DNA of 64,000 bases. It comes from Streptomyces sp. NBC_00271 (GTDB lineage Bacteria > Actinomycetota > Actinomycetes > Streptomycetales > Streptomycetaceae). The notes under the pieces are model-generated. The model was given only the letters and a program-made list of their open reading frames with translations, was not told where the DNA came from and made no database searches. How positions within the stretch are numbered: position 1 is the first letter of the stretch; the number at the start of each line of letters is the position of its first letter. A program made the position numbers and the translations under genes. Positions 26,588-49,375 of this stretch are shown in pieces. The stretch lies in contig NZ_CP108070.1 in assembly GCF_036178845.1 (NCBI RefSeq), forward strand, positions 1-64,000, given 5' to 3'.

Positions 26588-26890
26588 TCAGAACCACTGC
26601 AGGTACTGCGGCAGGCCGCCGGAGCGGATGCCGAGACCGCAGCAGCGCCCCTCGGACCGACTGCCGCTTGCCCGGCGATCCGGTCGGCTCTCGCCCTTCT
26701 TGAGGGCGTCGCCGGTGTGCATGCGCAGGCAGAAGACGCAGCCGTTGATCTGGGAGGTGCGGATCCTCAGCAGCTCGACCAGGAGCGGGTCGAGGCCCGC
26801 GGCGGTGGTGGTCTCTCCCACCTCCGAGGACAGGGCGATGAGGCTCTTGTAGGCGGCCGGGGCTGCTCGCCGATGTGGACGCGCTGGGGG
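26588..26890 (-). pseudogene. Decayed carboxymuconolactone decarboxylase (AhpD-like)
   Basis: The minus strand reads RVHIGEQ, then in a shifted frame PAAYKSLIALSSEVGETTTAAGLDPLLVELLRIRTSQINGCVFCLRMHTGDALKKGE, after which similarity ends. This matches the first half of the intact paralogue at 36928-37401, including the redox CxxC (CVFC). A frameshift near 26850 and loss of the C-terminal half make it a pseudogene. Its place between cupin and SDR genes is where an ECF41-linked CMD gene would be expected. Confidence 0.7.
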
Positions 26891-36927: not shown

Positions 36928-37401
36928 TCAGTTGCCGGTGACCGGGTATCGACTTGTAATCGCGACGCGGTTGAAGGCGTTCATCAACGTTGACAGCCAG
37001 GCCACCGCCGAGACCTGATCTGCGGAGAGCACGGCTGCTGCCGCGTTGTAGTCGTCGTCGCTCACGTGCCCCTCGGACACGTGCGCGATGGCCTCTGTAA
37101 GGCGTAGGGCCGCGCGGTCGGTCTCGGAGAAGTAATCGGTTTCTTCCCACGCGGGCAACACTGCGATCCGGTCCGGGTTCTCGCCCTTCTTGAGCGCGTC
37201 GCGGGTGTGCATTTTGAGACAGAACGCGCAGCCGTTGATCTGGGACGTGCGGATCTTCAAAAGCTCGACCAGAAGCGGGTCAAGACCTGCCGCGGTGGTG
37301 GTGTCTTCCACTGCCGAGGACAGGGTGATAAGAGCCTTGTAATTGGCCGGGTGCTGCTTTCCGATGTTAACGCGCTGCTTCTCAGTCTCTGAATCAGTCA
37401 T
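36928..37401 (-). CDS. Carboxymuconolactone decarboxylase family protein (AhpD-like)
   Basis: 157 residues, ATG after GAGGAGGAACCC. KIRTSQINGCAFCLKMHTRDA carries the CxxC redox pair and downstream His of AhpD-type alkylhydroperoxidases. ALRLTEAIAHVS and LSTLMNAFNRVAI complete the all-alpha CMD fold. Probably peroxide or thiol redox chemistry. A truncated paralogue lies at 26.6 kb and a second remnant near 45.0 kb. Confidence 0.88.
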   Translation of the reverse strand: MTDSETEKQRVNIGKQHPANYKALITLSSAVEDTTTAAGLDPLLVELLKIRTSQINGCAFCLKMHTRDALKKGENPDRIAVLPAWEETDYFSETDRAALRLTEAIAHVSEGHVSDDDYNAAAAVLSADQVSAVAWLSTLMNAFNRVAITSRYPVTGN

Positions 37402-37899
37402 GGGTTCCTCCTCTTCGCGTGGCCGGACGCACCCCGCAGGGGCATCCTCAGCCTCACCTAATCTGTGGCATTGTTACTAGCGGCGGGTGATACGCAATGG
37501 GAATTGCGACTTAAACCTTCTCGCCGCGCTTTTGTTCCCGTCTGGCGCCGATCAGGTACCCGGTCCCATCCGGTGCGTGGGGCATCTTTCGGTCGGCCTC
37601 CGGAATCCGGTCAAAGTGGAACTCCTCCACAAGACCAGCAGTCCTGGTAGTCGGCGAGCTTGAGGATGGCATCGGCGTCGTCGACCGGGGCCATATCCCT
37701 TCGGCTTTGATCCGACACTTGTCGCTCAGCCGTTCACCCGGGCACTTCCCAGGCGAGGTGGGAAAAACAAGAAGCGGATTCGCGACGCCACGACGCATCA
37801 GGCGCATGGGCGACATGAGACCGCGCGCCGAACTTACGAGCATCAACTCCTCCTGTCCGGTTCGAGCCCCCGGGAGGGCCTCCAGGCTCGGCAAACAGC
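37402..37899. other. Spacer with a possible 27-residue remnant ORF
   Basis: About 500 bases with no solid gene. On the minus strand an ATG at 37694 behind GAAGGGAT opens a 27-codon frame (MAPVDDADAILKLADYQDCW then SCGGVPL) that looks protein-like but is too short to classify; it ends at 37611. A longer minus-strand frame (37511-37903) has no family features. Confidence 0.3.
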
Positions 37900-39031: not shown

Positions 39032-39073
39032 CTGTCGAGCCGATAGGAGCATATGCTCCTATCGGCTCGACAG
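39032..39073. promoter_or_regulatory. Perfect 42-bp palindrome containing the MarR-type operator core
   Basis: The left half is CTGTCGAGCCGATAGGAGCA plus T and the right half is its exact complement, with CATATG at the centre (39050-39055). The inner AGGAGCATATGCTCCT is shared with sites at 39436, 41132, 45895 and 46709. It lies upstream of the nitrilase gene. The outer arms are unique to this copy. Confidence 0.7.
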
Positions 39074-39435
39074 CAAGGAGCAGATCCTCCCGAACCCTTT
39101 CGACTCGGCGACGCCGAGTCGCCCGGGCACCCATCGCCGCGCCCCGAAGGGGTGGCCGCGCCCACCCCTCACACGGCCATCACCTTTGGCGGCATGTCGC
39201 ATCTGCGACGCCTGACGCCGGTGACATACCGGTACCACCGCGACCGCCTCCAAATGGGCAACAGGGAAGGCGCGGCGGGGTGCGCGTCGCATCCGGCGTC
39301 CGCAGCGATGAGGACGTCCGGGTCGCGGATGGATCACCGTCCGACCGAAATCAGCCGGGGGGCGACTCGACCATCCGGCGATGGACCGGGGGTCACGGTA
39401 GGTGTCGCCCAAGACCCGCCCCTTGCCATTTCGAT
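39074..39435. other. Spacer without a gene
   Basis: About 360 bases between two operator palindromes. Short ORFs in all frames lack coding signs. It appears to be the promoter region or a joint between the nitrilase cassette and the truncated marR copy. Confidence 0.35.
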
Positions 39436-39457
39436 AATAGGCGCATATGCTCCTATT
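39436..39457. promoter_or_regulatory. MarR-type operator in front of the truncated marR copy
   Basis: AATAGGCGCATATGCTCCTA, then TT, is a 22-bp palindrome with one mismatch, 24 bp before the ATG of the marR remnant. Its position mirrors the operator before the intact marR gene, as expected for autoregulation. Confidence 0.6.
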
Positions 39458-39481
39458 GCCGGTAAGTCACGTCGCGACGAC

Positions 39482-39543
39482 ATGGCCCCGACGCGGGTGG
39501 ACCTCGTCGACGCATGCAACAACCTGACACTGCGCAAGGTCCG
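39482..39543 (+). pseudogene. Truncated second copy of the MarR regulator
   Basis: The ATG at 39482 reads MAPTRVDLVDACNNLTLRKV, matching MTTAPTDPADSCNNLALRKA of the intact regulator at 45.3-45.8 kb. Similarity ends after about 20 codons and the frame continues as unrelated sequence. It keeps its own operator upstream. Confidence 0.65.
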
Positions 39544-39749
39544 CACCAGCAAGAGCATGGCTCGGCATCCAGGGCGGTCATCACCTGATTATCCGTCACC
39601 CCTATGGCAGGTGACGTAGGTTGTGTGAGTGTCGAAATGCCACCCCAACAGAGGTTGTTCACAAGTCGATCGGAGCAGGCGTCGGCCCCCGTGCATCCGG
39701 GCCGAGGTTCTGCCGCCACCGAATCGACACCACAGAACGGAGCGGCAAG

Positions 39750-40265
39750 TTGCCGACTACATTGAAGATCAACAAGCTGCGTTACCTGAGTGCAGCCGCC
39801 GGCATCGCCACTGTCGTCGCCGGTGGCGTCGCCATCGCCCCGCTGGCGTCGGCCGGCACGTCAACTTCTGCCAGTGCGCACGTCGTTGACCAGCGCGCGA
39901 AAACTTTCGAGCTGGTCGGCAAACAGACCTCGCTCGAAGACCTCGATCTGGGCCGGGCAGGAATCAGCCCGGGTGACCAGCGCGTCATCCACGAAGACCT
40001 CTACCGCGACGGCGAGAAGGTCGGCGATCACAGCGTCGTCTGTACCTACACCCACGTCGATCCGGCCGCGCTCCAGTGCCTGGGCACCTTCTCTCTGCCT
40101 GAGGGACAGTTCGCCGCGCAGGCGCTGCTCCACCTGCCCGCCCCGTCCTACGTCGACGTCGGCATCACCGGCGGATCAGGCGACTACCGCAACGCCCGAG
40201 GCTTTGTTCGCACCGTTCCTGCCGGTGACACCGAGAGGCACTTCACCGTCCACCTGAAGCGCTGA
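39750..40265 (+). CDS. Secreted allene-oxide-cyclase-barrel-like protein
   Basis: 171 residues from a TTG at 39750 (GGAGCGGCAAG upstream; a second TTG is at 39762). A signal peptide (LRYLSAAAGIATVVAGGVAI...LASAG) is followed by a beta-barrel domain with LEDLDLGRAGISPGDQRVIH, GDHSVVCTYTHV, CLGTFSLPEGQ and VGITGGSGDYRNARGFVR, as in dirigent/AOC-like proteins of Streptomyces. Exported; molecular role unknown. Confidence 0.75.
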   Translation: MPTTLKINKLRYLSAAAGIATVVAGGVAIAPLASAGTSTSASAHVVDQRAKTFELVGKQTSLEDLDLGRAGISPGDQRVIHEDLYRDGEKVGDHSVVCTYTHVDPAALQCLGTFSLPEGQFAAQALLHLPAPSYVDVGITGGSGDYRNARGFVRTVPAGDTERHFTVHLKR

Positions 40266-40315
40266 CGGTTGGCTGTCGTACGCCCTCGCCGCCACAGCCC
40301 GCCCATCTGACACCT

Positions 40316-40435
40316 GTGCAGGTCGGGTCGTCGCGCTCGACCTGGTGGCCGGCGCCGAGATGCACCTCAAGAGCGGCGGCATCGAGCAGGCGTGCGCCAC
40401 CTGGGACGCGATCGTCCGCCCTCCGGATCGCAATC
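40316..40435 (+). pseudogene. Fragment of a TPR-type regulator
   Basis: A plus-strand frame reads AGRVVALDLVAGAEMHLKSG then GIEQACATWDAIVRP, like the C-terminal tetratricopeptide part of Streptomyces regulators. There is no start, and the frame ends in unrelated sequence. The rest of 40266-40539 holds no gene. Confidence 0.35.
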
Positions 40436-40539
40436 CCCGAGCCGGTGGGCAGCTCGTACTGCTCCGCCGCCCCCGGCCCCCATCGACCGGTGACTCGCAG
40501 GTGTGAGATTCACCGACATCAAGAGAGAAAGACCCCTAC

Positions 40540-41013
40540 ATGTACATGAAGCTCGAAGTCACCGTGCTGGCTGTTTCCGATGTCGATCGGGCCAAGGCCT
40601 TCTACGAGCAGGTGGGATTCCGTCTGGACATCGACATGGCCGCCAGCGAGAACTGGCGCGCGGTGCACTTCACGCCGCCCGGTTCCGAGTGCTCGATCAT
40701 GTTCGGCACGGGGATCACCTCCGCCGCGCCCGGCTCGGCCCAGGGCCTGTACCTCGCCGTCTCCGACATCGAGGAGGCCCGCGCGGAACTCGTCGGTCGC
40801 GGCATCGAGGTGGGCGAAGTCTTCCACGACGCCGCAGGACTGCTCTACCACGGCCATGAGGCCGGAGAGGTCACCCACCGGGTCGAGGGACAGGGGCGGC
40901 TTGCCGGCCTGCACCCCGGCCGCGCTTCCTACGGCTCCTTCGCCACCTTCAGCGACCCGGACGGCAACGGCTGGGTGCTCCAGGAGATCACGCAGCGGTT
41001 CCCCGGCCGCTGA
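40540..41013 (+). CDS. VOC-family (glyoxalase-like) protein
   Basis: 157 residues. MKLEVTVLAVSDVDRAKAFY EQVGF and the final FATFSDPDGNGWVLQEIT define the paired beta-alpha-beta-beta-beta modules of the vicinal oxygen chelate fold. The metal ligands cannot be assigned with confidence. Complete and of usual length for single-domain VOC proteins; substrate unknown. Confidence 0.88.
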   Translation: MYMKLEVTVLAVSDVDRAKAFYEQVGFRLDIDMAASENWRAVHFTPPGSECSIMFGTGITSAAPGSAQGLYLAVSDIEEARAELVGRGIEVGEVFHDAAGLLYHGHEAGEVTHRVEGQGRLAGLHPGRASYGSFATFSDPDGNGWVLQEITQRFPGR

Positions 41014-41131
41014 CATCTCATCAGCCACCCGGGAATGACGGGCGACGACCAGCCTGCAGGACGGCCGGCCCCGATCAGCCCCTGAACACAGCCCCGGCGC
41101 ACCATCAGTCGGATTCCGAAGCCGACACAAA

Positions 41132-41150
41132 TACGAGCATATGCTCCTTA
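41132..41150. promoter_or_regulatory. MarR-type operator upstream of the Tat-exported hydrolase
   Basis: TACGAGCATATGCTCCTTA: the GAGCATATGCTC core with near-symmetric flanks, 57 bp before the hydrolase start. Same core as the sites at 39032, 39436, 45895 and 46709. Confidence 0.65.
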
Positions 41151-41207
41151 GTCTCGAGGTCCTGGCTTCGCCCTGACGCTCGAGCAACGTTCGAAGGGAA
41201 AATTTTC

Positions 41208-42329
41208 ATGACCATGTCTCCCATGGAGCCGCCCACGCAGGAAGGCCCCGGATCAAAGCCGGTGTCACACCGTGCCCGGCGCGGGCTGTCCCGACGCGGC
41301 TTCGTCGGCGGCGCGGCTGCTTCTGCTGCTGCCGCAGCCGGTATCTCGCTGGTAGGCGGATTGACCACCGTCGCCGCTGCCTCCCCCGCCGTGCGCAGGC
41401 CGAGGGGTTTGGGTTCGGTCTCCACGGCTCCGGGGCTTCCGGCCGGGTTCACCAAGACGTTCACCAGCCGGTTCATCCAGGCCGGCGGACTGCGCCAGCA
41501 CGCGGTCATCGGAGGCGACGGGCCGCCGCTGCTGCTGGTACACGGCTGGCCGCAGAACTGGTACGCCTGGCGCATGGTGATGCCGGAGCTCGCCCGGCAC
41601 TACACGGTCATCGCCGTCGACCAGCGCGGCATCGGTCTGACCGAGAAGCCCAAGAGCGGGTACGACACCGCTACCCTCGCCAACGACCTGGTCGCCCTTA
41701 TGAACGCCCTCGGTCACCAACGGTTCGCCGTGGCCGGCCATGACACCGGCCTGATCGTCAGCTACGCGCTGGCGGCGGACCATCCACAGCGTGTCGCCCG
41801 CGTGGCCCTCCTGGAGGTTCCCGGACCCCCGACGCTGAAGGCCTCGCCGCCCCTGTTCATCGATGAGGACCACAACAACAGGCTCTGGCACATCCCCTTC
41901 AACCGGGTCAACCACAAGCTGACCGAGAAGCTGGTCAGCGGCCGGGAGGAGATCTTCTTCGGCTACGAGTTCGACATCCAGGGCGGGCAGAAGCTGCCCA
42001 ACTACGCGCGCGAGTACTACTTCCGTCTCCTCTCCGACCCCGAGACCCTGCGCGGCAGCTTCGGTCTCTACCGCGCATGGGACACCACCACCGCGCAGAA
42101 CGCGACGCGCGCCGAGAACAAGCTGACGATGCCCGTCCTGGCGATCGGCGGATCGGAAAGCTGGGGTGACCTGGTCGGAAAGGCGATGATTCCCCTCGCG
42201 AACGACGTACAAGGTGTGGTCATCCCCGGTGCCGGCCACTGGGTCGCTGAGCAGGCCCCCAGGCAGCTGCTGTCGGAACTGACGCGCTTCCTGGCCCCGT
42301 ACCGCCGCGCCGCCGGCCCGTCCCGCTAG
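41208..42329 (+). CDS. Tat-exported alpha/beta hydrolase (epoxide hydrolase-like)
   Basis: 373 residues. A twin-arginine signal (LSRRGFVGGAAASAAAAAG) precedes an alpha/beta-hydrolase domain: oxyanion motif HGWPQNWYAW, DQRGIGLTEKP, nucleophile elbow GHDTG (Asp nucleophile, as in epoxide hydrolases and haloalkane dehalogenases) and catalytic His in GAGHWV. It would be folded in the cytoplasm and exported via Tat; a complete tat operon lies 365 bp downstream. A MarR-type operator sits in its promoter region. Confidence 0.9.
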   Translation: MTMSPMEPPTQEGPGSKPVSHRARRGLSRRGFVGGAAASAAAAAGISLVGGLTTVAAASPAVRRPRGLGSVSTAPGLPAGFTKTFTSRFIQAGGLRQHAVIGGDGPPLLLVHGWPQNWYAWRMVMPELARHYTVIAVDQRGIGLTEKPKSGYDTATLANDLVALMNALGHQRFAVAGHDTGLIVSYALAADHPQRVARVALLEVPGPPTLKASPPLFIDEDHNNRLWHIPFNRVNHKLTEKLVSGREEIFFGYEFDIQGGQKLPNYAREYYFRLLSDPETLRGSFGLYRAWDTTTAQNATRAENKLTMPVLAIGGSESWGDLVGKAMIPLANDVQGVVIPGAGHWVAEQAPRQLLSELTRFLAPYRRAAGPSR

Positions 42330-42373
42330 CGGACGGCCAGACGTCCGGGCATGCCCCGGGCGTGACGGCACGC

Positions 42374-42460
42374 GCTCGACCAGGCGGCAGTGTCGCCGCT
42401 TTCGAGCAGCCGGAGCTCCTCACCGAAGAGCCCGGTATGTTCGCCCGGCTCCTGCGCTAA
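42374..42460 (+). pseudogene. C-terminal scrap of a second alpha/beta hydrolase
   Basis: The plus-strand frame ending in TAA at 42460 reads GGSVAAFEQPELLTEEPGMF, close to the GGHFAAxEQPELLxEE C-terminus of epoxide hydrolase-like enzymes. Only about 28 residues remain. Confidence 0.45.
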
Positions 42461-42489
42461 TCCCACCGCAGGGGCCCTCGACCGAGGTC

Positions 42490-42522
42490 GTCCTGCCCGC
42501 CGGGTGTCCCGGCGGGCAGGAC
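42490..42522. terminator. Strong terminator hairpin between the hydrolase and tat genes
   Basis: GTCCTGCCCGCCGGG and its exact complement surround a TGT loop, a 15-bp perfect stem. It should separate the hydrolase transcript from the tat operon. Confidence 0.7.
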
Positions 42523-42694
42523 CGGAGCGAACGCTCTTGCGCAGTTGTACCCGGGGTGGTCAGCCCCCGGGGAGCCGCACGCCGTCGTGCGGCTGGCCTG
42601 CGTTCGGCAGGCGCCCCTTCGGACGACTGGCACGCCACGCTTCGCCCCCTTCCAGGAGCGGCGGAGCCTTCACCATCCCCGACGGGAGGCATGG

Positions 42695-43126
42695 ATGTTT
42701 TCCGACATCGGCCCACTCGAAGTTGTGACGCTGATCGTGCTGGCCGTCATTCTTGTCGGGCCCGACAAGCTCCCCAAGATGGTGTCCGACACCATGCGGA
42801 CCCTGCGCAAGCTCCGCGAGTTCTCGCAGAGCGCTCAGGCGAGCATTCGAGACGAACTCCCCACCGAGCTCAAGGACCTGAATCTCGAGGACCTCAACCC
42901 GAAGACCTTCGTGGCCAAGAACCTCTTGGGTGACCAGAGCCTGGGCCTGGGCGACCTGACCGCCGACCTCGGCCTAGGGGACGAACCGCTTGACAGCGCC
43001 GGAACCAACACCTCAAAGGGCCTCGGCAAGACCACCGCACCCGACCCGCTTCCCGCGGCCACCGGCCACGGGCCTCGGGAAGCCACCGGCACGGGGCGCT
43101 ACAGCCTCGACAAGAACGGCCCGTAA
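42695..43126 (+). CDS. tatB: Twin-arginine translocase subunit TatB
   Basis: 143 residues from the ATG at 42695 (GACGGGAGGC upstream). The single N-terminal membrane helix in MFSDIGPLEVVTLIVLAVIL, then VGPDKLPKM, and the long amphipathic helix (MRTLRKLREFSQSAQASIRDEL) are typical of TatB; the tail is disordered. TatB and TatC form the receptor for twin-arginine signals. First gene of an accessory tatB-tatA-tatC set. Confidence 0.88.
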   Translation: MFSDIGPLEVVTLIVLAVILVGPDKLPKMVSDTMRTLRKLREFSQSAQASIRDELPTELKDLNLEDLNPKTFVAKNLLGDQSLGLGDLTADLGLGDEPLDSAGTNTSKGLGKTTAPDPLPAATGHGPREATGTGRYSLDKNGP

Positions 43127-43275
43127 CCGGGAAGGACCACGGCCGCCTCGCCGTCGGCCCGCCCCGTCAATGCACTGACCGGCACGCAGGGCCTGGCTGC
43201 CGCATCCGTCCGCAGCCAGGCCACCGCGCAGGAGCACCGCCCCTGCGCTTTCAGACCCTCGGAAAGGAAACGCCC

Positions 43276-43536
43276 ATGTTCGGCAGGCTCGGAGCACCCG
43301 AGATCATCCTCATCCTCCTCGTCGTCGTGCTCCTGTTCGGCGCCAAGCGGCTCCCCGAAATGGCCCGCTCCTTCGGGCAGTCGCTGCGGATCCTCAAGAG
43401 CGAGACCAAGGCCATGCAGAAGGACGACGCGGACGAACCCCCGACCGTTCACGCCACCGCAGCCCACCAGCTCGCGGCCGAGAGCCGGCACACGGCCCCG
43501 GAGGCGACCGAGGCAGACACCTCCCCCCGGCGCTGA
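43276..43536 (+). CDS. tatA: Twin-arginine translocase subunit TatA
   Basis: 86 residues, ATG after GGAAAGGAAAC. LGAPEIILILLVVVLLFGAK (helix with the FGAKRLPEMARSFGQSL hinge and amphipathic helix) is diagnostic of TatA, which oligomerises to form the translocation pore. The gene lies between tatB and tatC, with gaps of about 150 and 60 bp. Confidence 0.9.
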   Translation: MFGRLGAPEIILILLVVVLLFGAKRLPEMARSFGQSLRILKSETKAMQKDDADEPPTVHATAAHQLAAESRHTAPEATEADTSPRR

Positions 43537-43597
43537 AACACCGAAGCCACCGACCAGCACCCGGCCGGTGCCGCACTTGAAGGGACCGGGACCGCCC

Positions 43598-44464
43598 ATG
43601 CCGACCCAACCAGCACATGACGCCGCGCCTATGCCCCTGCGGGAGCACCTGCGCGAGCTGCGCAACCGCCTACTCAAGGCCGTCGGAGCGATCCTGCTCA
43701 TCACCGTCGTTGCGGCCCTGTTCTACAAGCAGCTGATCGGATTCCTCATCGATCCCCTGCCCGGCTGCGCTCCGGGCCAACCGGCCGGCACGGACGACGC
43801 GGGCCGCTGCGGCGTGATCTCCCTCAACGGCCTTCTGTCACCCTTCACCCTCGCGCTGAAGGTGTCCATCACCGCGGGGGTCGTCGCCGCGAGCCCGCTG
43901 TGGCTGTATCAGCTGTGGGCCTTCGTCGCACCAGGACTGCACCGCAACGAGAAGAAATACACCCTGACCTTCCTCGGGGCCGGCATCCCCCTGTTCCTGA
44001 CCGGTGCCGCCGTGGCGTACTGGACCCTGCCCACCACGGCACGGGTACTTATCTCCTTCACCCCGGACAACGCCACCAACCTCCTGCCCGTCGACGACTT
44101 CCTCAACCTCGCCACCCGCATGGTCCTCGTCTTCGGACTCTCCTTCGAACTCCCCGTCCTTCTCGTGCTGCTGAACCTCGGCGGCGTGATCAGCGCACGC
44201 CGGATGGCCGACTGGTGGCGCGGCATGTTCATGGCCATCGCCGCCTTCGCGGCGCTCGCCACCCCCAGCACCGACCCGCTCAGCATGCTGCTGCTCGCCA
44301 CCCCCATCAGCCTGCTGTACCTGGCGGCGTGCGCCATCTCCTGGCACAACGATCGCCGCCGGCAGCGCACCGGCACCACCCGGCCAGGCGGAAGCCCGGA
44401 CACCGAGGCATCCCCCATCGACCTCACCCCGGCCCCCCTCGACATCTCCGTCAGCCGACCCTGA
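43598..44464 (+). CDS. tatC: Twin-arginine translocase subunit TatC
   Basis: 288 residues from the ATG at 43598 (a GTG at 43568 is possible). MPLREHLRELRNRLLKAVGA, SPLWLYQLWAFVAPGLHRNEK and FGLSFELPVLLVLLNLGGVI are TatC hallmarks, with six membrane helices. It carries the signal-binding Glu/Arg surface of the N-terminal half. This is an accessory copy, since tatC is normally a core chromosomal gene, and it sits just downstream of a Tat substrate. Confidence 0.92.
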   Translation: MPTQPAHDAAPMPLREHLRELRNRLLKAVGAILLITVVAALFYKQLIGFLIDPLPGCAPGQPAGTDDAGRCGVISLNGLLSPFTLALKVSITAGVVAASPLWLYQLWAFVAPGLHRNEKKYTLTFLGAGIPLFLTGAAVAYWTLPTTARVLISFTPDNATNLLPVDDFLNLATRMVLVFGLSFELPVLLVLLNLGGVISARRMADWWRGMFMAIAAFAALATPSTDPLSMLLLATPISLLYLAACAISWHNDRRRQRTGTTRPGGSPDTEASPIDLTPAPLDISVSRP

Positions 44465-44500
44465 CAAGCCCCTTCTCAAGGAGCGGCCCGCCGCCGGTGG

Positions 44501-44640
44501 TCAAGGCAGTTGCTTGCGACGAGCCCGGGAGGCCCGCAGATTGACGGCGTTGCCGCAGTTGCGTACGTCGTGCCAGATCCCGCTTTACTGCGCGAGCGGT
44601 CGTAGAACGCCACGGCGCACTTGTTCGTAGTGACACGCCG
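44501..44640 (-). pseudogene. CGNR zinc-finger regulator fragment, frameshifted
   Basis: CAVAFYDRSRSKAGS followed, after a one-base shift near 44573, by WHDVRNCGNAVNLRASRARR is the C-terminal CGNR zinc finger (C-x3-FYDxSR...W...CGN...RARR). The N-terminal ABATE-like domain is missing. Confidence 0.6.
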
Positions 44641-44736
44641 GTTCCGGGGCGCCGGGTACCGAGGGCGTGACCGCGAGACCTGCGGAACGGCGGACCTTGC
44701 CCTCGGCGTTCAGATCGACTCCGTCATCGAGTGTGG

Positions 44737-44878
44737 ATGGGGTTGGGGAAGAAGGAAGCGAAGGCCGCGCTGCAGGGCGTGATGCCGTGGCTGCCGCCGA
44801 CTGGGAAGCTAACGGTGGAGGCGTCGTCGAAGCTGGACCGGCCGCTGGATGATGACGTTCATGCAGTGCGGTTGTAAG
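44737..44878 (+). CDS. Short ORF, possibly a remnant
   Basis: 46 residues, MGLGKKEAKAALQGVMPWLP then TGKLTVEASSKLDRPLDDD. It has no good ribosome-binding site and no recognised family. Codon use is acceptable for Streptomyces, so it may be the end of an older gene. Confidence 0.2.
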
Positions 44879-45175
44879 CGCTGATCAGGGCGATGAGGGA
44901 CACCAACCCGGCCAACTGGTCCTCGTCGTAGCGGTTGGCCGCGTTCGCCCAGGCCTCGTCGGTGACGCCACCGGACGATGCGCGTGCCCTGTTCCGCCAG
45001 TTCCAAGGGCGCCCGCTCGGCCTCGGTGAACACCGTGCCCTCAGCCGTTGATCTGGCCGGCCCGGATCTTCATCAGTTCCTGCGTCGCGGCCGACAGAGT
45101 CGACTCCGTGATGACCTTGCCTGTCAGGCTGCGCAGCGAGTCCCTGCCGTCGACGCCCGATCTCACACACCCTCG
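44860..45175 (-). pseudogene. Decayed carboxymuconolactone decarboxylase-like gene
   Basis: Minus-strand pieces in different frames read FTEAERAPLELAEQGTRI, then VTDEAWANAANRYDEDQLAG and LVSLIALISAYNRTA, the distal half of CMD/AhpD-like proteins (LxxxIAxINAxNR). The CxxC region is disrupted by stops and shifts. This is the third CMD-type sequence in the window. Confidence 0.55.
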
Positions 45176-45309
45176 ACGACTCCCCCCATGCGCTCGCTCC
45201 TTGGAAGCAGCCGCGTCAAGGGGTCCGTCACGCCCGGCGTGTTCACGGGCACTTCGGTGACGTCAGGGCGGCCGACGCCAGCCCTCAGTAGCGCCAGAAG
45301 CGTCGTGTC

Positions 45310-45762
45310 CTACTCGGCCCAGGGCTCGAATCCGGTGTGAAGGACGGCGTCGAGGTACGCGCGCAGATGGGCTGCCTCGTCGGCGCCGAAGTTCTCCTCG
45401 AACTGGGCCTGCACGGCATTCCACAGTGGTAGCGCCGCCTTCAGTCGGGTGAGGCCGTCCGGCGTGATGGCGGCGATCCGTGCGCGGCGGTCGGCTGCCG
45501 ATGACTCGACGGTTACCAGACCCTCGCGGGCAAGCGGCTTGAGGTTTGAGGCCATCGTCGTGCGGTCCATGGCGATCACGTCGGCAAGGCTGGTGATCGT
45601 CATTTCTCCGTGCCCACTCAGCTTCTGCAGGATGCTGAGCTGCGTCGCACGAAGACCGACGGGGGCCAGGGCCTTGTCGTAGGTCGCACCGAGGTACCGG
45701 GCCGCCTTGCGCAGGGCCAGGTTGTTGCACGAGTCGGCGGGATCCGTCGGCGCAGTGGTCAT
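45310..45762 (-). CDS. MarR-family transcriptional regulator
   Basis: 150 residues from the ATG at 45762 (GGAGGAGACA upstream). A winged helix-turn-helix is visible: GLRATQLSILQKLSGHGEMT, ITSLADVIAMDRTTMASNLK and the wing LVTVESSAADRRARIAAITPDG. MarR proteins bind palindromic operators as dimers and release on ligand binding. An operator-like TACGAGCAGGTGCTCT lies at 45793-45808 in front of it, related to the GAGCATATGCTC sites found nearby. Confidence 0.9.
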   Translation of the reverse strand: MTTAPTDPADSCNNLALRKAARYLGATYDKALAPVGLRATQLSILQKLSGHGEMTITSLADVIAMDRTTMASNLKPLAREGLVTVESSAADRRARIAAITPDGLTRLKAALPLWNAVQAQFEENFGADEAAHLRAYLDAVLHTGFEPWAE

Positions 45763-45792
45763 TGTCTCCTCCAGAGCTTCACCCACCCATGA

Positions 45793-45808
45793 TACGAGCA
45801 GGTGCTCT
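45793..45808. promoter_or_regulatory. Operator-like palindrome in front of marR
   Basis: TACGAGCAGGTGCTCT: GAGCA/TGCTC arms with a divergent centre, 30 bp upstream of the marR start. Likely an autoregulatory, weaker version of the GAGCATATGCTC operator. Confidence 0.5.
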
Positions 45809-45894
45809 CAAATGCGACAGTCACCCTGCCGCCAACGGTCGGCGACGGGCCGGCGGGTCCACCCCGAACCACTCGCTCTTGCCATCAAGGCAAA

Positions 45895-45912
45895 TATGAG
45901 CATATGCTCATA
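45895..45912. promoter_or_regulatory. MarR-type operator (perfect 18-bp palindrome)
   Basis: TATGAGCATATGCTCATA is fully symmetric with the shared core. It faces a gene-poor stretch on the right (protein remnants at 46075-46201) and marR on the left. Confidence 0.65.
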
Positions 45913-46074
45913 GCTGTGGCGCGATGCCCCCTCCTGACCCCTCCAGCGAGCCTCGCACCCCTCCACCCGAAAGCCTTGCAGAAACCCCCATCGGATCTGC
46001 TCCCGTGCGTGGGCCGACACTCTCCGCAGCGGCCGAACTCTTCCCGAGGCTCCACCTCACCGCCCGCCGCCCGC

Positions 46075-46201
46075 CCGGTTTGGCGAGCTGCCGAAGCGAA
46101 TCCTCCCCGAGGAGATGATCGAAGAACGGGCGACCACGATGCCGAACCCGGCGCCGAATACACACAACGCCGACAAGTGGCTCGTTCGGTACTGCCCGTA
46201 A
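46075..46201 (+). pseudogene. C-terminal protein fragment, family unknown
   Basis: The frame ending in TAA at 46201 reads FGELPKRILPEEMIEERATT then MPNPAPNTHNADKWLVRYCP. It is strongly protein-like but has no start and is not recognised. It lies downstream of the operator at 45895, so it may be the end of a formerly MarR-controlled gene. Confidence 0.4.
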
Positions 46202-46232
46202 GCCACATCAGCCCAAACAATGGAGGATTCCC

Positions 46233-46319
46233 ATGCACGTACCCAAGCCCCTCATGGCAGTCTCGCTGGCGGTGCTCTCGATAGCTGTCACCCTGGGCTG
46301 CTTCGCCCAGGTCTTCTGA
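46233..46319 (+). CDS. 28-residue lipoprotein-like peptide
   Basis: ATG 6 bp after a strong GGAGG. MHVPKPLMAVSLAVLSIAVT then LGCFAQVF: a hydrophobic helix ending in LGC, like a lipobox, with only five residues after the Cys. Either a true small membrane peptide or a lipoprotein gene cut just after its signal; coding-like sequence continues in another frame (AAGTGTGASRSSGSAGS). Confidence 0.45.
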   Translation: MHVPKPLMAVSLAVLSIAVTLGCFAQVF

Positions 46320-46419
46320 CCGCCGGACAAGGCCTGGAGGCCGCCGGCACCGGCACCGGTGCCTCCCGCTCCTCAGGGTCTGCGGGCTCAATGAACGCCG
46401 CCCCGGCCCCTTCGCAGGC

Positions 46420-46650
46420 GTGGACCACCATCCGGCGAAGGCCGACGTCAAGGAGCTCGTCCAGGCCAAGCCGCCCAGGCCAGCGAGGAACCTTGCGGAC
46501 GGCGCCCGACGGGGCCGATCCGGGGAGCGGCGTCACACCGGAGTGGGCGCGTGGGCGCACATCAAGCGGTGCCTGGCCAACCTGGCCGCCCGCGCCCTCG
46601 GCGACCTGGAGACTCTGCTCCCATGTACTCACAGCTTGCGGCCGTGACGA
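46420..46650 (+). pseudogene. IS630-type transposase C-terminal scrap
   Basis: GAWAHIKRCLANLAARALGD then LETLL matches the C-terminal VWAHLKRSLANLA motif of IS630-like transposases. The catalytic DDE part is absent. Confidence 0.5.
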
Positions 46651-46708
46651 GGCCAGCCTGCCCCTGGTGGCGCCACGTCGGCCGGACGGCAGGCTTGCTA
46701 CCAGGAAA

Positions 46709-46728
46709 ATAAGAGCATATGCTCGTAT
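46709..46728. promoter_or_regulatory. MarR-type operator upstream of the NTF2-like gene
   Basis: ATAAGAGCATATGCTCGTAT, the shared palindromic core 71 bp before the NTF2-like start. Confidence 0.65.
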
Positions 46729-46799
46729 CTACTGCTGGAATCACTGGTAGCCGGTCCATGCGTAAGCGGCCAGGGCCGGATCTCGGAAGTAGGCATGAC

Positions 46800-47213
46800 A
46801 TGACGAACGCGGAAGACAGCGATAACGGCCGCCAGGGACTCAGCTACTACCCATGGTGGCTGGACAACCTGGCCGACGACGTCACCCTGGAAGGCGCCGC
46901 CATGAACGGCACCGCCCGTGGCGCGGAGGCGGTCCGCGCCATCGTGGTCAAGGCCCGCGAACTGTACGAGTTCCAGGACTTCAGCTTCACCGGAGACTTC
47001 GGCGACAACGGCTTCCTCGAGATCTACGATGCATCAGTCCTCGGCGAGCCCATGAAGGTTGTCGTCACGGTCACCCGCAACGCCGTCGGACAGGCCCAGG
47101 AACTCGCGGTGCTCCACCGGCCGCGCAACACGCTGCTGCTCTTCTCCCGCGAGATGAACAAGAAGTTCGCCAGCACCCCCCTCGCCGAGCACTTCCTCGC
47201 CGACGAGTCCTGA
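46800..47213 (+). CDS. NTF2/SnoaL-like protein
   Basis: 137 residues from the ATG at 46800. YYPWWLDNLADDVTLEGAAM, GAEAVRAIVVKARELYEFQD and GEPMKVVVTVTRNAVGQAQE follow the cone-shaped NTF2-like fold used by small isomerases and hydrolases. No catalytic residues can be assigned. It has a MarR-type operator in its promoter region, making it a likely member of the same regulon as the nitrilase and the Tat-exported hydrolase. Confidence 0.8.
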   Translation: MTNAEDSDNGRQGLSYYPWWLDNLADDVTLEGAAMNGTARGAEAVRAIVVKARELYEFQDFSFTGDFGDNGFLEIYDASVLGEPMKVVVTVTRNAVGQAQELAVLHRPRNTLLLFSREMNKKFASTPLAEHFLADES

Positions 47214-47272: not shown

Positions 47273-48171
47273 TCATGCCGCGAGTGTGAGTCTACGTTCT
47301 GTTTGGTGCTGCTGTTCGAACTCGACGGGTGAGAGGTAGCCGAGCGAGCTGTGGCGCCTTCGCCCGTTGTAGTACGTCAGCCACTGGAAGAGTTCCAGCC
47401 TGGCCTGGCTGATCGTCGTGAAGAGCCTCTGGTGCATCGTCTCTCTCTTCAGCCCCTGCCAGAAGCTCTCGGCGAGGGCGTTGTCGTAACTCGACCCGAC
47501 GCGGCCCATGCTCCTGCGGATCCCGAAACGGTCGCAGACCTGGGCGAACGCGCCCGAGGTGTACTGGGAGCCCCTGTCGGCGTGGAAGATCACCCCGGCC
47601 ACGCTGCCGCCCCGGGTCGCCACCGCCATCTTCAGTGCGTCGATGACGAGTTCGGTCCGCATGTAGGTGGCCATCGACCAGCCGAGCACCCGGCGTGAAC
47701 AGATGTCCAGGACACAGGCGAGATACAGCCACGTGCCACCGACCTGCACGTATGTGATGTCGCCGCACCACTTTTCGTCGAGCTGCCCGGCATGGAACAC
47801 GCGGTTCACCAGGTCCGGGGCCGGCGGCGCGAGCCGGTCCGGGGCCGTGGTGCGTTTGCGCCGCCGCAGATGGCGGCCCTCGACCCCGTTGACGCGCATC
47901 AGCCGTTCGACGCGCTTGCGGTTGACGGTGTGGCCGAAGCCGCGCAGTTCGGCGTGGATGCGGCGGACTCCGTACGTGCCCTTGTGATCGGCGTGGATCT
48001 CGCGGATCTCCTCGACCAGGGCGTCGTCGGCCGCCCGGCGGGCCTGCCGGGCCTCCGCCCCCGCAAGCCACCGGTAGTAGCCCGAGCGCGAGACCTCAAG
48101 AACCCGGCATATCCGCTGCACGCCGAAGTCGGCGCGGTTGGGGCGGAGATGAAGTCCCAGCGGCCGGTCAT
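47273..48171 (-). pseudogene. IS3 OrfB transposase, possibly frameshifted near its start
   Basis: The integrase core is complete: VQRICRVLEVSRSGYYRW, KWCGDITYVQVGGTWLYLA (D), IFHADRGSQYTS (D) and NALAESFWQGLKRE (E). The expected OrfB start at 48171 (MTGRWDFIS, overlapping the orfA stop) is in a different frame from NRADFGVQRICRVLE; a single missing C in the run near 48144 would explain it. A GTG at 48121 could still give a shorter protein. Confidence 0.7.
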
Positions 48172-48494
48172 GCCCTCATCTCCTTGGCGAAATACTGGGC
48201 CGCCCGGCGCAGGATCTCCCGCTCGAGTTCCCACTCCTTCTCGGCCTTGCGCAACCGGCCGAGTTCGGCCCGGAGCCTCGCCAGTTCCTCGTCCCGATCC
48301 TCTGCCGCCTCGTCACCACGGACCTGCCCACGGCCGGCGACCTCGTCGGCCTGCCGGACCCAACTGCGCAGCGTCTCGCCGCTCACCCCGACGTCCGCGG
48401 CGACCGCGGCATACGTCCGCTTCCCGCCCCCCGCGCGGTACAACGCCACCGCGTCGTTCCTGAACTCCACGGGATATGGAGACTTCCGTCCCAC
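48168..48494 (-). CDS. IS3 OrfA (transposase helix-turn-helix subunit)
   Basis: 108 residues, GTG start. SPYPVEFRNDAVALYRAGGG...TYAAVAADVGVSGETLRSWV is the HTH of IS3 OrfA, followed by a leucine-zipper-like coil (ELARLRAELGRLRKAEKEWE) and EREILRRAAQYFAKE. Confidence 0.85.
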   Translation of the reverse strand: MGRKSPYPVEFRNDAVALYRAGGGKRTYAAVAADVGVSGETLRSWVRQADEVAGRGQVRGDEAAEDRDEELARLRAELGRLRKAEKEWELEREILRRAAQYFAKEMRA

Positions 48495-48511
48495 CAGACA
48501 CCCTTCCTCGG

Positions 48512-49375
48512 GGCACTGTCACGTTGTCGGGTGTGTGGAGATCTGGCGGCGTGTCAGGGTGTGGTGTTGCTGGGTTCCGGGCCTTTGGTCAGACCGTGGT
48601 GGGTCGGCCGACAGCGTCGGTGATCTGGTCCCAGATGGCGAAGCGGATGGTCATCTCGGCTCGGTGGTCGGGGGCGGTCATCAGGTGGCGGTGAGGTCGG
48701 AAGTGGGGTGAGATGCCGCTGAACGCGGACAGGAACCGCTGTGCTCCACCGATGCTGCGGAAGCCCTTCATCGCGCGTTCGCGCTGCCGGGTGGGCTGGT
48801 GGGAGTTCTCGGCCCGGTTGTTCAGTCCCTTGTGTGAGCGGTGCTCGACGGAGGGCATGACCTCGCGGTGGGCGGCGCCGTAGGAGCGGAGCTTGTCGGT
48901 GACGACCACCCGCGGCACCGTGCCGGTCTTCTTCATCAGGCGGCGGAAGAAGCGCCTGGCGGCGGCCTTGTCCCGCCGGTTCTGCACGAGGATGTCGAGC
49001 ACGTTGCCGTCCTGGTCGACGGCCCGCCACAGGTACTTGTGCTCCCCGTTGATCTTGATGAAGACCTCGTCCAGGTGCCACTTGTCGCCGGGCCGTGGCC
49101 GACGGCGGCGCAGTCCGTTCGCGTAGGCCTGGCCGAACTTGGCGCACCAGCGGCGGATGGTCTCGTAGGAGACGATCACGCCGCGCTGGAGCAGCAGCTC
49201 CTCGACCTCGCGGAAGCTGAGCGGGAATCGGTGGTACAGCCACACGCAGTGGGATATGACCTCGACCGGGTAACGGTGCCCCCTATACGACGGCGACGCG
49301 CTCTCCACGGACGATCCCCCTCCACCACGACCAACCAGAAGATCATCCCACCCAGTCAGTCAACGTGACAGCGCC
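48512..49375 (-). mobile_element. IS6-family insertion sequence
   Basis: Fifteen-base terminal inverted repeats GGCACTGTCACGTTG (48512-48526) and CAACGTGACAGCGCC (49361-49375) differ at one position. They enclose one transposase gene in an 864-bp element, the usual IS6 size. The adjacent 8-mers (TTCCTCGG and CCTCATGG) are not a target duplication, so the element probably moved with a flanking deletion, consistent with the truncated transposase on its right. Confidence 0.85.
48589..49308 (-). CDS. IS6-family transposase
   Basis: 239 residues. RYPVEVISHCVWLYHRFPLS and FREVEELLLQRGVIVSYETI form the HTH part; the catalytic triad is in WHLDEVFIKI (D), VVVTDKLRSYG (D) and NNRAENSHQPTRQRER (E). Full length, so probably functional. 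Confidence 0.92.
   Translation of the reverse strand: MESASPSYRGHRYPVEVISHCVWLYHRFPLSFREVEELLLQRGVIVSYETIRRWCAKFGQAYANGLRRRRPRPGDKWHLDEVFIKINGEHKYLWRAVDQDGNVLDILVQNRRDKAAARRFFRRLMKKTGTVPRVVVTDKLRSYGAAHREVMPSVEHRSHKGLNNRAENSHQPTRQRERAMKGFRSIGGAQRFLSAFSGISPHFRPHRHLMTAPDHRAEMTIRFAIWDQITDAVGRPTTV

Follow-up and report, generated by a model that had tools for sequence, protein, structure and literature searches.

Nitrilase genes have been found flanked by genes for MarR-type regulators, epimerases and epoxide hydrolases in environmental clones, for which MarR control and coupled reactions were suggested (Podar et al. 2005, PMC1199592). Here we describe a related arrangement in Streptomyces sp. NBC_00271, within bases 1-64000 (hereafter the window) of an 11.93-Mb contig belonging to a 12,278,258-bp (12.28-Mb) genome, in which a palindrome recurs in front of a marR gene and of several genes around it. 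We conclude that the MarR protein encoded at 45310-45762 very probably uses this palindrome, TAnGAGCATATGCTCnTA, as its operator and would repress its own gene and those behind the other sites by covering their promoters. Regulator-operator pairing, conservation and the spacing of a TTG motif were computed directly, and binding, repression and the assignment of -35 and -10 elements are inferred from them.

With the post-transition subfamily-1 neighbourhoods (PMC1199592), the window shares a Nit6803-type nitrilase near a MarR gene and an epoxide-hydrolase-like gene. An NAD(P)H-binding NmrA-like gene is shared by sister loci; tblastn gave no good match to it in the window. MarR always lies upstream of the nitrilase in the neighbourhoods shown by Podar et al., whereas in the window the two genes are not adjacent, and no operator is given in the accessible part of that paper. 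The earlier note on this DNA had called the circuit compact and apparently undescribed. The association of MarR, nitrilase, epimerase and epoxide hydrolase genes has been known since 2005, whereas the operator and the regulon, as far as our searches go, were not found described: full-text searches of open-licence papers did not return the operator word as a binding site. CATATG is also the NdeI site. As a string, the 12-mer occurs in two papers, one on a surface-enhanced Raman scattering chip and one on Rpf expression.

Other described systems resemble the locus in part. MosR (4FX0/4FX4) and EstR/OhrR (PMC5823404, PMC5201249) share with the window MarR the MarR fold, an N-terminal cysteine and palindromic operators. 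EstR controls an alpha/beta hydrolase via two promoter-overlapping operators, with GTTATCGCGATAAC as its operator; the switch proposed for MosR is a Cys10-Cys12 disulphide, whereas the window MarR has one cysteine. Streptomycete MarR autoregulation via two or more palindromes is likewise described for SCO3205 and SAV4189 (PMC3737563, PMC6036246), but their operators, TTnAAnnnTCAA and TTGCCYKHRSCAA, differ from the window core. The MhqR electrophile regulon (PMC6798810) is alike in its working, a MarR repressor acting on quinone-resistance genes, although the genes differ and no membership is claimed. In Bacillus, phoD-tatAdCd (PMC3827258) likewise groups twin-arginine translocation (Tat) genes with the gene for the protein that they export, and secretion there responds to phosphate; unlike there, the window tatBAC follows an epoxide-hydrolase-like gene behind a predicted MarR operator. 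The locus does not belong to the Nit1C type, in which a nitrilase has radical SAM, GNAT and AIR-synthase-like neighbours: here the genes typed nearby are AhpD, AOC-like, VOC, hydrolase, tat and marR genes, and a Nit1C plasmid control (L105) did contain the Nit1C genes. The MhqR operator reportedly differs from the window core.

Four exact copies of the core, GAGCATATGCTC, are found in the window, at 39047, 41135, 45898 and 46713. A core with one mismatch, GCGCATATGCTC, stands at 39441, and one with two mismatches, GAGCAGGTGCTC, at 45796, ahead of marR. The earlier note had listed five core sites and a weaker form in front of marR; the weaker form corresponds to the two-mismatch site and four of the five are exact, but the fifth (39441) is one base off, and the positions given lay 3-15 bp from the core because they refer to longer palindromes, one of which, 42 bp in length, begins at 39032. 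Scored in bits with a matrix built from 47 sites of other loci, the predicted operators, together with the regulator gene and its partial second copy, are as follows.

39047..39058, minus strand: predicted operator of the nitrilase gene; 37.1 bits; TTG at -18; inside a 42-bp perfect palindrome (39032-39073)
39441..39452, plus strand: predicted operator GCGCATATGCTC, ahead of the marR 5' fragment and the AOC-like gene; 35.1 bits; TTG at -18
41135..41146, plus strand: predicted operator ahead of the hydrolase-tat genes; 32.5 bits; TTG at -18 absent
45796..45807, minus strand: predicted marR-proximal operator, GAGCACCTGCTC on the marR strand; 26.2 bits; similar placement in many orthologs
45898..45909, plus strand: predicted operator, strong, separating marR from the divergent ABC-2-like gene fragment; 33.9 bits; TTG starts at -19
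46713..46724, plus strand: predicted operator of the NTF2-like gene; 40.2 bits; TTG at -18
45310..45762, minus strand: marR, likely 150-residue product from ATG 45762; PF01047 38.4 bits (cut-off 24.6)
39482..39619, plus strand: 5' fragment of a second marR (MAPTRVDLVDACNNLTLRKV...); similar remnant in L033

A genome-wide motif scan, which the earlier note had called for, found the exact core to be far from common. All eight copies in the genome fall either within the window cluster or within the mirror copy carried by the opposite end of the chromosome (C1:11885386-11893063), and the reversed word, taken as a control, has no copy in the 12,278,258 bp; the density of sites is thus as unlikely by chance as that note had held. 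Two 3,012-bp pieces of the mirror copy are identical to the window, and the cluster therefore sits in a terminal inverted repeat. This duplication of the chromosome end and the tatBAC genes behind the hydrolase had both gone unmentioned before. Looser scans of the genome gave no excess: allowing two mismatches yielded 415 cores and 428 copies of the reversed word, and allowing one mismatch yielded 82 matches to TAnGAG-N6-CTCnTA and 111 to the reversed pattern. Hence the signal lies in the strong sites and their flanks, and further trans targets cannot be named.

The sites might in principle have clustered by chance, or be copies left by local duplication with no regulatory role. The region is a rearranged chromosome end that also contains a surplus marR fragment and further remnants, and the 42-bp palindrome at 39032-39073 is possibly a template-switch product. 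Compared by eye, the six sites nevertheless appear unrelated to one another farther from the core, and the genome-wide exclusivity of the core, its conservation across genera and the ABC-2-like gene comparison given below already disfavour this explanation, which we consider extremely improbable. The arm of the 42-bp palindrome measures 21, the longest elsewhere among the sites of the 39 loci introduced below being 15.

Conservation links the palindrome to the regulator. We fetched 39 loci by MarR similarity alone and sought the core from -350 to +40 of the marR match. Upstream of marR it was exact in 17/39 loci, within one mismatch in 25/39 and within two in 32/39, as compared to 0/39, 0/39 and 3/39 for the reversed word in the same stretches; shuffled palindromes (200 draws, one mismatch) gave a mean of 0.03 and a maximum of 1. 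The marR promoters of these loci are commonly two-sited, with a strong distal site and a weaker one close to marR. Cupriavidus relatives of the protein, at 56-60% identity, keep the core with one or two changes, which means that the MarR-operator pairing predates the genus or moved between phyla. None of the 80 sites of at least 22 bits in the 39 loci falls inside a called gene (30-base margin). Among them, 31 lie away from marR, and many of these precede VOC, NmrA-like, ABC-2-like, NTF2-like, nitrilase, epoxide-hydrolase-like, nitrile hydratase or SnoaL genes. Megaplasmid copies show the same layout again. On one Streptomyces megaplasmid (L110, 8165-13019), four operators precede AOC, hydrolase, NTF2-like and ABC-2-like genes; no marR was called in that 19-kb stretch, and the one marR match listed for the plasmid lies about 1 Mb away.

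The pairing also holds across a sample of 295 genomes of the genus, in which MarR presence was called at E up to 1e-45. The exact core occurred in 19/295 genomes and MarR in 10/295, the core being found in all 10 MarR-bearing genomes vs 9/285 others (Fisher p 7.8e-14). Of the 23 foreign exact cores 19 were scored: nine reached 34-41 bits, all from MarR genomes, and the remaining ten, nine from MarR-less genomes plus one from the MarR genome G034, stayed below 19 bits. Around the marR loci of this sample (L072-L082), a site of at least 18 bits lies within 1.5 kb in 10/11 cases.

A shared target gene offers a control for hitch-hiking of the site with its gene. In the window this gene survives as a fragment, the lost gene of the earlier note.

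45924..46075, plus strand: 5' fragment of an ABC-2-like membrane protein gene; homology to the relatives' intact gene ends at about 46075

Orthologs of this gene (E up to 1e-80) carried the site in 7/8 other MarR genomes vs 0/7 MarR-less genomes, and two ABC-2-like paralogs in the window's own genome are without it. This comparison suggests that the site depends on the presence of MarR at a shared target gene, and it speaks against hitch-hiking. The type assignment of the protein comes from weak PF12698 matches in 14/22 members, and its structure model is of low confidence (mean predicted local distance difference test score, pLDDT, 61.5). Together with the exclusivity of the core, its conservation upstream of marR and the co-occurrence in 295 genomes, this apparent MarR dependence lends support to the palindrome-marked MarR regulon that the earlier note had proposed from the letters of the sequence. 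A 28-codon open reading frame (ORF), MHVPKPLMAVSLAVLSIAVTLGCFAQVF, stands at 46233-46319 (by eye), with similar short ORFs in L033, L037, L039, L043 and L047; perhaps it encodes a small membrane peptide.

The sites further display a promoter-like architecture. In 29/52 non-proximal sites, at least one strand carries a TTG whose first base lies 18-19 bp ahead of the core, as compared to 0-5 at control offsets and 3/28 at marR-proximal sites. TTGC at -18 with a 17-bp spacer puts TATGCT, the right half of the palindrome, at the -10 position, and TATGCT inside the core is likely the -10 element. The spacing is exact at the nitrilase, AOC and NTF2 sites of the window and one base longer at the ABC-2-fragment site. 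At marR itself, the presumed -10, TATCAT (45789-45794), directly follows the weak site. On another reading, the palindrome would serve some other DNA-binding protein as operator, or be nothing more than a promoter element, and merely accompany the cluster: CATATGCT holds a plausible -10, so that conservation could be partly promoter, and a Streptomyces plasmid stretch (L096) has a site before its nitrilase and no detectable ortholog of the window MarR. The marR-proximal sites, however, mostly keep GAG..CTC while their centre varies and the -35-like TTG is absent, so the outer half-sites are maintained even where they would have no such part in a promoter. Since the sites also track MarR across genomes, we regard such an origin as quite unlikely and favour the MarR encoded beside the sites as the protein that would bind them.

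Several observations weigh against this assignment to MarR or weaken its support. No core within two mismatches was found in 7/39 ortholog stretches (L040, L059, L066, L068, L069, L070 and L071), and the genus-sample locus L073 (in G111) has no site of at least 18 bits within 1.5 kb of marR. G034 counts as motif-positive solely via a chance exact core (11.9 bits) elsewhere in its genome, although two one-mismatch sites lie no more than about 1.3 kb from its marR (L077), and one of these stands immediately upstream. On the Streptomyces cadmiisoli plasmid L096, a 33-bit site (8797) precedes the nitrilase and no MarR ortholog was detected in the 19-kb stretch. Conversely, two Streptomyces nitrilases of 82-85% identity (L087, and L094 at C1:605199 of this genome) showed no site in 4-kb stretches. 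The hydrolase operator (41135) lacks the TTG at -18. There are also limits of design: the scoring matrix derives from sites upstream of marR in the 39 loci; some genus genomes look identical to loci of that set (for example L018/L035, L029/L063), so that the samples are not independent; and sparse gene calls in L068 and L070 leave the absence of sites inside genes under-tested there.

The protein has the winged helix-turn-helix MarR domain (PF01047), and operator-like palindromes stand at what would be its own promoter (45796 and 45898; kept in orthologs). Its likely start is ATG 45762; an alternative ORF of 158 residues from GTG 45786 would begin 3 bases past the presumed -10. Its only close relative in the genome is the mirror copy, the next match being 31% identical. 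The closest chain in the PDB is 4fx0, whose sequence is the same as that of 4fx4, MosR. An N-terminal cysteine, as expected of a thiol sensor, is present in 38/38 orthologs that could be read at that end, drawn from 37 of the 39 loci and from L107; the other two loci, L059 and L071, are truncated or out of frame. This conservation and the nearness of MosR would fit a regulator that acts on the same operator and answers to oxidative or thiol stress, as MosR or OhrR, instead of to a nitrile or epoxide ligand. A CxC like that of MosR occurs in 7/38 orthologs, all distant, but its second cysteine is absent from the window MarR, which has a single cysteine and not the reported Cys10-Cys12 pair, and the target enzymes fit xenobiotic breakdown as well. 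We see the stress signal as a serious candidate, if somewhat short of probable.

We propose the following mechanism, in which sensing and substrate are conjectural. Ligand-free or reduced MarR would repress marR itself as well as the genes for the nitrilase, the AOC-like protein (perhaps together with VOC), hydrolase-tatBAC and the NTF2-like protein, and formerly may also have controlled the ABC-2-like membrane protein gene. At many targets the palindrome would double as promoter core, so that the repressor covers the -10, and at marR the weaker site would act from just upstream of the TATCAT -10. The repressor would leave the DNA in response to a toxic nitrile, epoxide or other electrophile, or once its lone conserved cysteine is oxidised, and breakdown and export would thereby be switched on.

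The genes in and beside the cluster are listed below.

36928..37401, minus strand: AhpD/CMD-family protein; TIGR00778 65.3 bits; weak site at 37838, 14.4 bits
37900..38889, minus strand: Nit6803-like nitrilase; TIGR04048 485.3 bits, below the NCBIfam cut-off of 502.6; 3wuy E 8.2e-123
39750..40265, plus strand: AOC-barrel-like protein; PF18678 37.6 bits; signal-like N-terminus by eye
40540..41013, plus strand: VOC/glyoxalase-family protein; PF00903 38.3 bits
41208..42329, plus strand: alpha/beta hydrolase, epoxide-hydrolase-like; twin-arginine signal SRRGF by eye; in the PDB Cif-like 7jqx/7jqy, then 7clz/6kxr/6kxh
42695..43126, plus strand: tatB-like; PF02416 E 0.009, 15.7 bits, below the cut-off of 21
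43276..43536, plus strand: tatA; PF02416 65 bits
43568..44464, plus strand: tatC; PF00902 216 bits
44859..45170, minus strand: frameshifted CMD/AhpD-like remnant; ELMKIRAGQING can be read by eye in three-frame translation, interrupted by stops and frame changes
46800..47213, plus strand: NTF2/SnoaL-like protein; profile A2 matches 3f8x at E 4.2e-5

The likely targets are the nitrilase, the Tat-signal epoxide-hydrolase-like enzyme with tatBAC, the AOC-like and NTF2-like genes and the broken ABC-2-like gene, which agrees with the genes that the earlier note placed behind its sites: a nitrilase, a truncated marR, a Tat-exported hydrolase, a lost gene and, here on weak matches, an NTF2-like protein. 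For the latter no Pfam family exceeded its cut-off, with weak SnoaL_2 in 8/23 relatives, and orthologs at E up to 1e-40 occurred in 1/295 genus genomes, namely this one, which makes it uninformative as an independent test. AhpD was rejected as a full regulon member, its site at 37838 scoring 14.4 bits, and may be an outlying one. An AhpD-like fragment at 26669-26860 has 81% identity over 64 residues to an AhpD-type protein, and transposase-like ORFs (by eye) lie beside the cluster at 47273-49308.

The nearest structure to the nitrilase is Nit6803 (3wuy). Its relatives stand behind the operator, directly or in an apparent operon, in L048, L055 and the Streptomyces plasmids L095, L096, L097 and L111, so that all four inspected Streptomyces plasmid nitrilases have the site. 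Meanwhile, nitrile hydratase genes lie downstream of the operator, directly or past other genes, in L036, L040, L041 and L053. Nitrile hydratase is present in 7/10 MarR genomes vs 51/285 others (p 6e-4), an enrichment weaker than the p suggests because in 5/7 the gene is far from exact cores or on another contig. As a motif anchor the nitrilase was rejected, with no site at the non-Streptomyces plasmid loci L098-L104 nor at the chromosomal G087 (L087), G533 (L088) and L094; the comparison leaves out L089-L093. The non-Streptomyces plasmid nitrilase loci L098-L105 had no core at up to one mismatch, and tblastn with the window MarR gave nothing better than E 0.001 there. One of them, L101 (Paraburkholderia), has a Podar-type layout with an annotated MarR gene that looks unrelated to the window MarR by tblastn. 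A different palindrome, with centre TGCATATGCA, was seen in L098 (6358), L101 (6947) and L102 (6946), just upstream of the nitrilase in the last two; perhaps it is the operator of the MarR belonging to those proteobacterial loci.

Fluoroacetate dehalogenases rank clearly lower than Cif-like and related hydrolases among the structural relatives of the hydrolase by sequence. In its alignment with 7jqx, GHDTG lies over GRDIG, WH over WH and LYRA over LYRA; these residues may supply the Asp nucleophile and the ring-opening His/Tyr. The structures 7clz/6kxr/6kxh are presumably Alp1U of kinamycin biosynthesis. The earlier note had guessed at uptake and hydrolysis of a nitrile, epoxide or halogenated compound: the nitrile hydratases behind the same operator in sister loci and the Cif-like relatives lend the nitrile and epoxide some support, and a role in uptake gained none. 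Apart from the mirror copy, a single further TatC type is encoded in the genome, at C1:3091067 and with 58% identity. A tatB-tatA-tatC set behind the hydrolase recurs in L051, L095, L111 and Streptomyces cadmiisoli L109, where no operator was found, and does not stand behind the hydrolase in L039 or L110. The window tatBAC may serve the epoxide-hydrolase-like enzyme.

As a tentative and rather doubtful wider picture, the cluster could be a mobile detoxification island of chromosome ends and megaplasmids, with an electrophile-sensing MarR, interchangeable nitrilase and nitrile hydratase, a secreted epoxide hydrolase with a dedicated inducible Tat system, and an operator doubling as the -10. With this finding, a previously anonymous MarR gains a defined predicted operator and regulon, recognisable by sequence from Streptomyces to Cupriavidus. 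It gives a testable class of inducers and a natural inducible switch for use in streptomycetes, and it draws attention to a Tat translocase that may be reserved for a single detoxification enzyme outside the cytoplasm.

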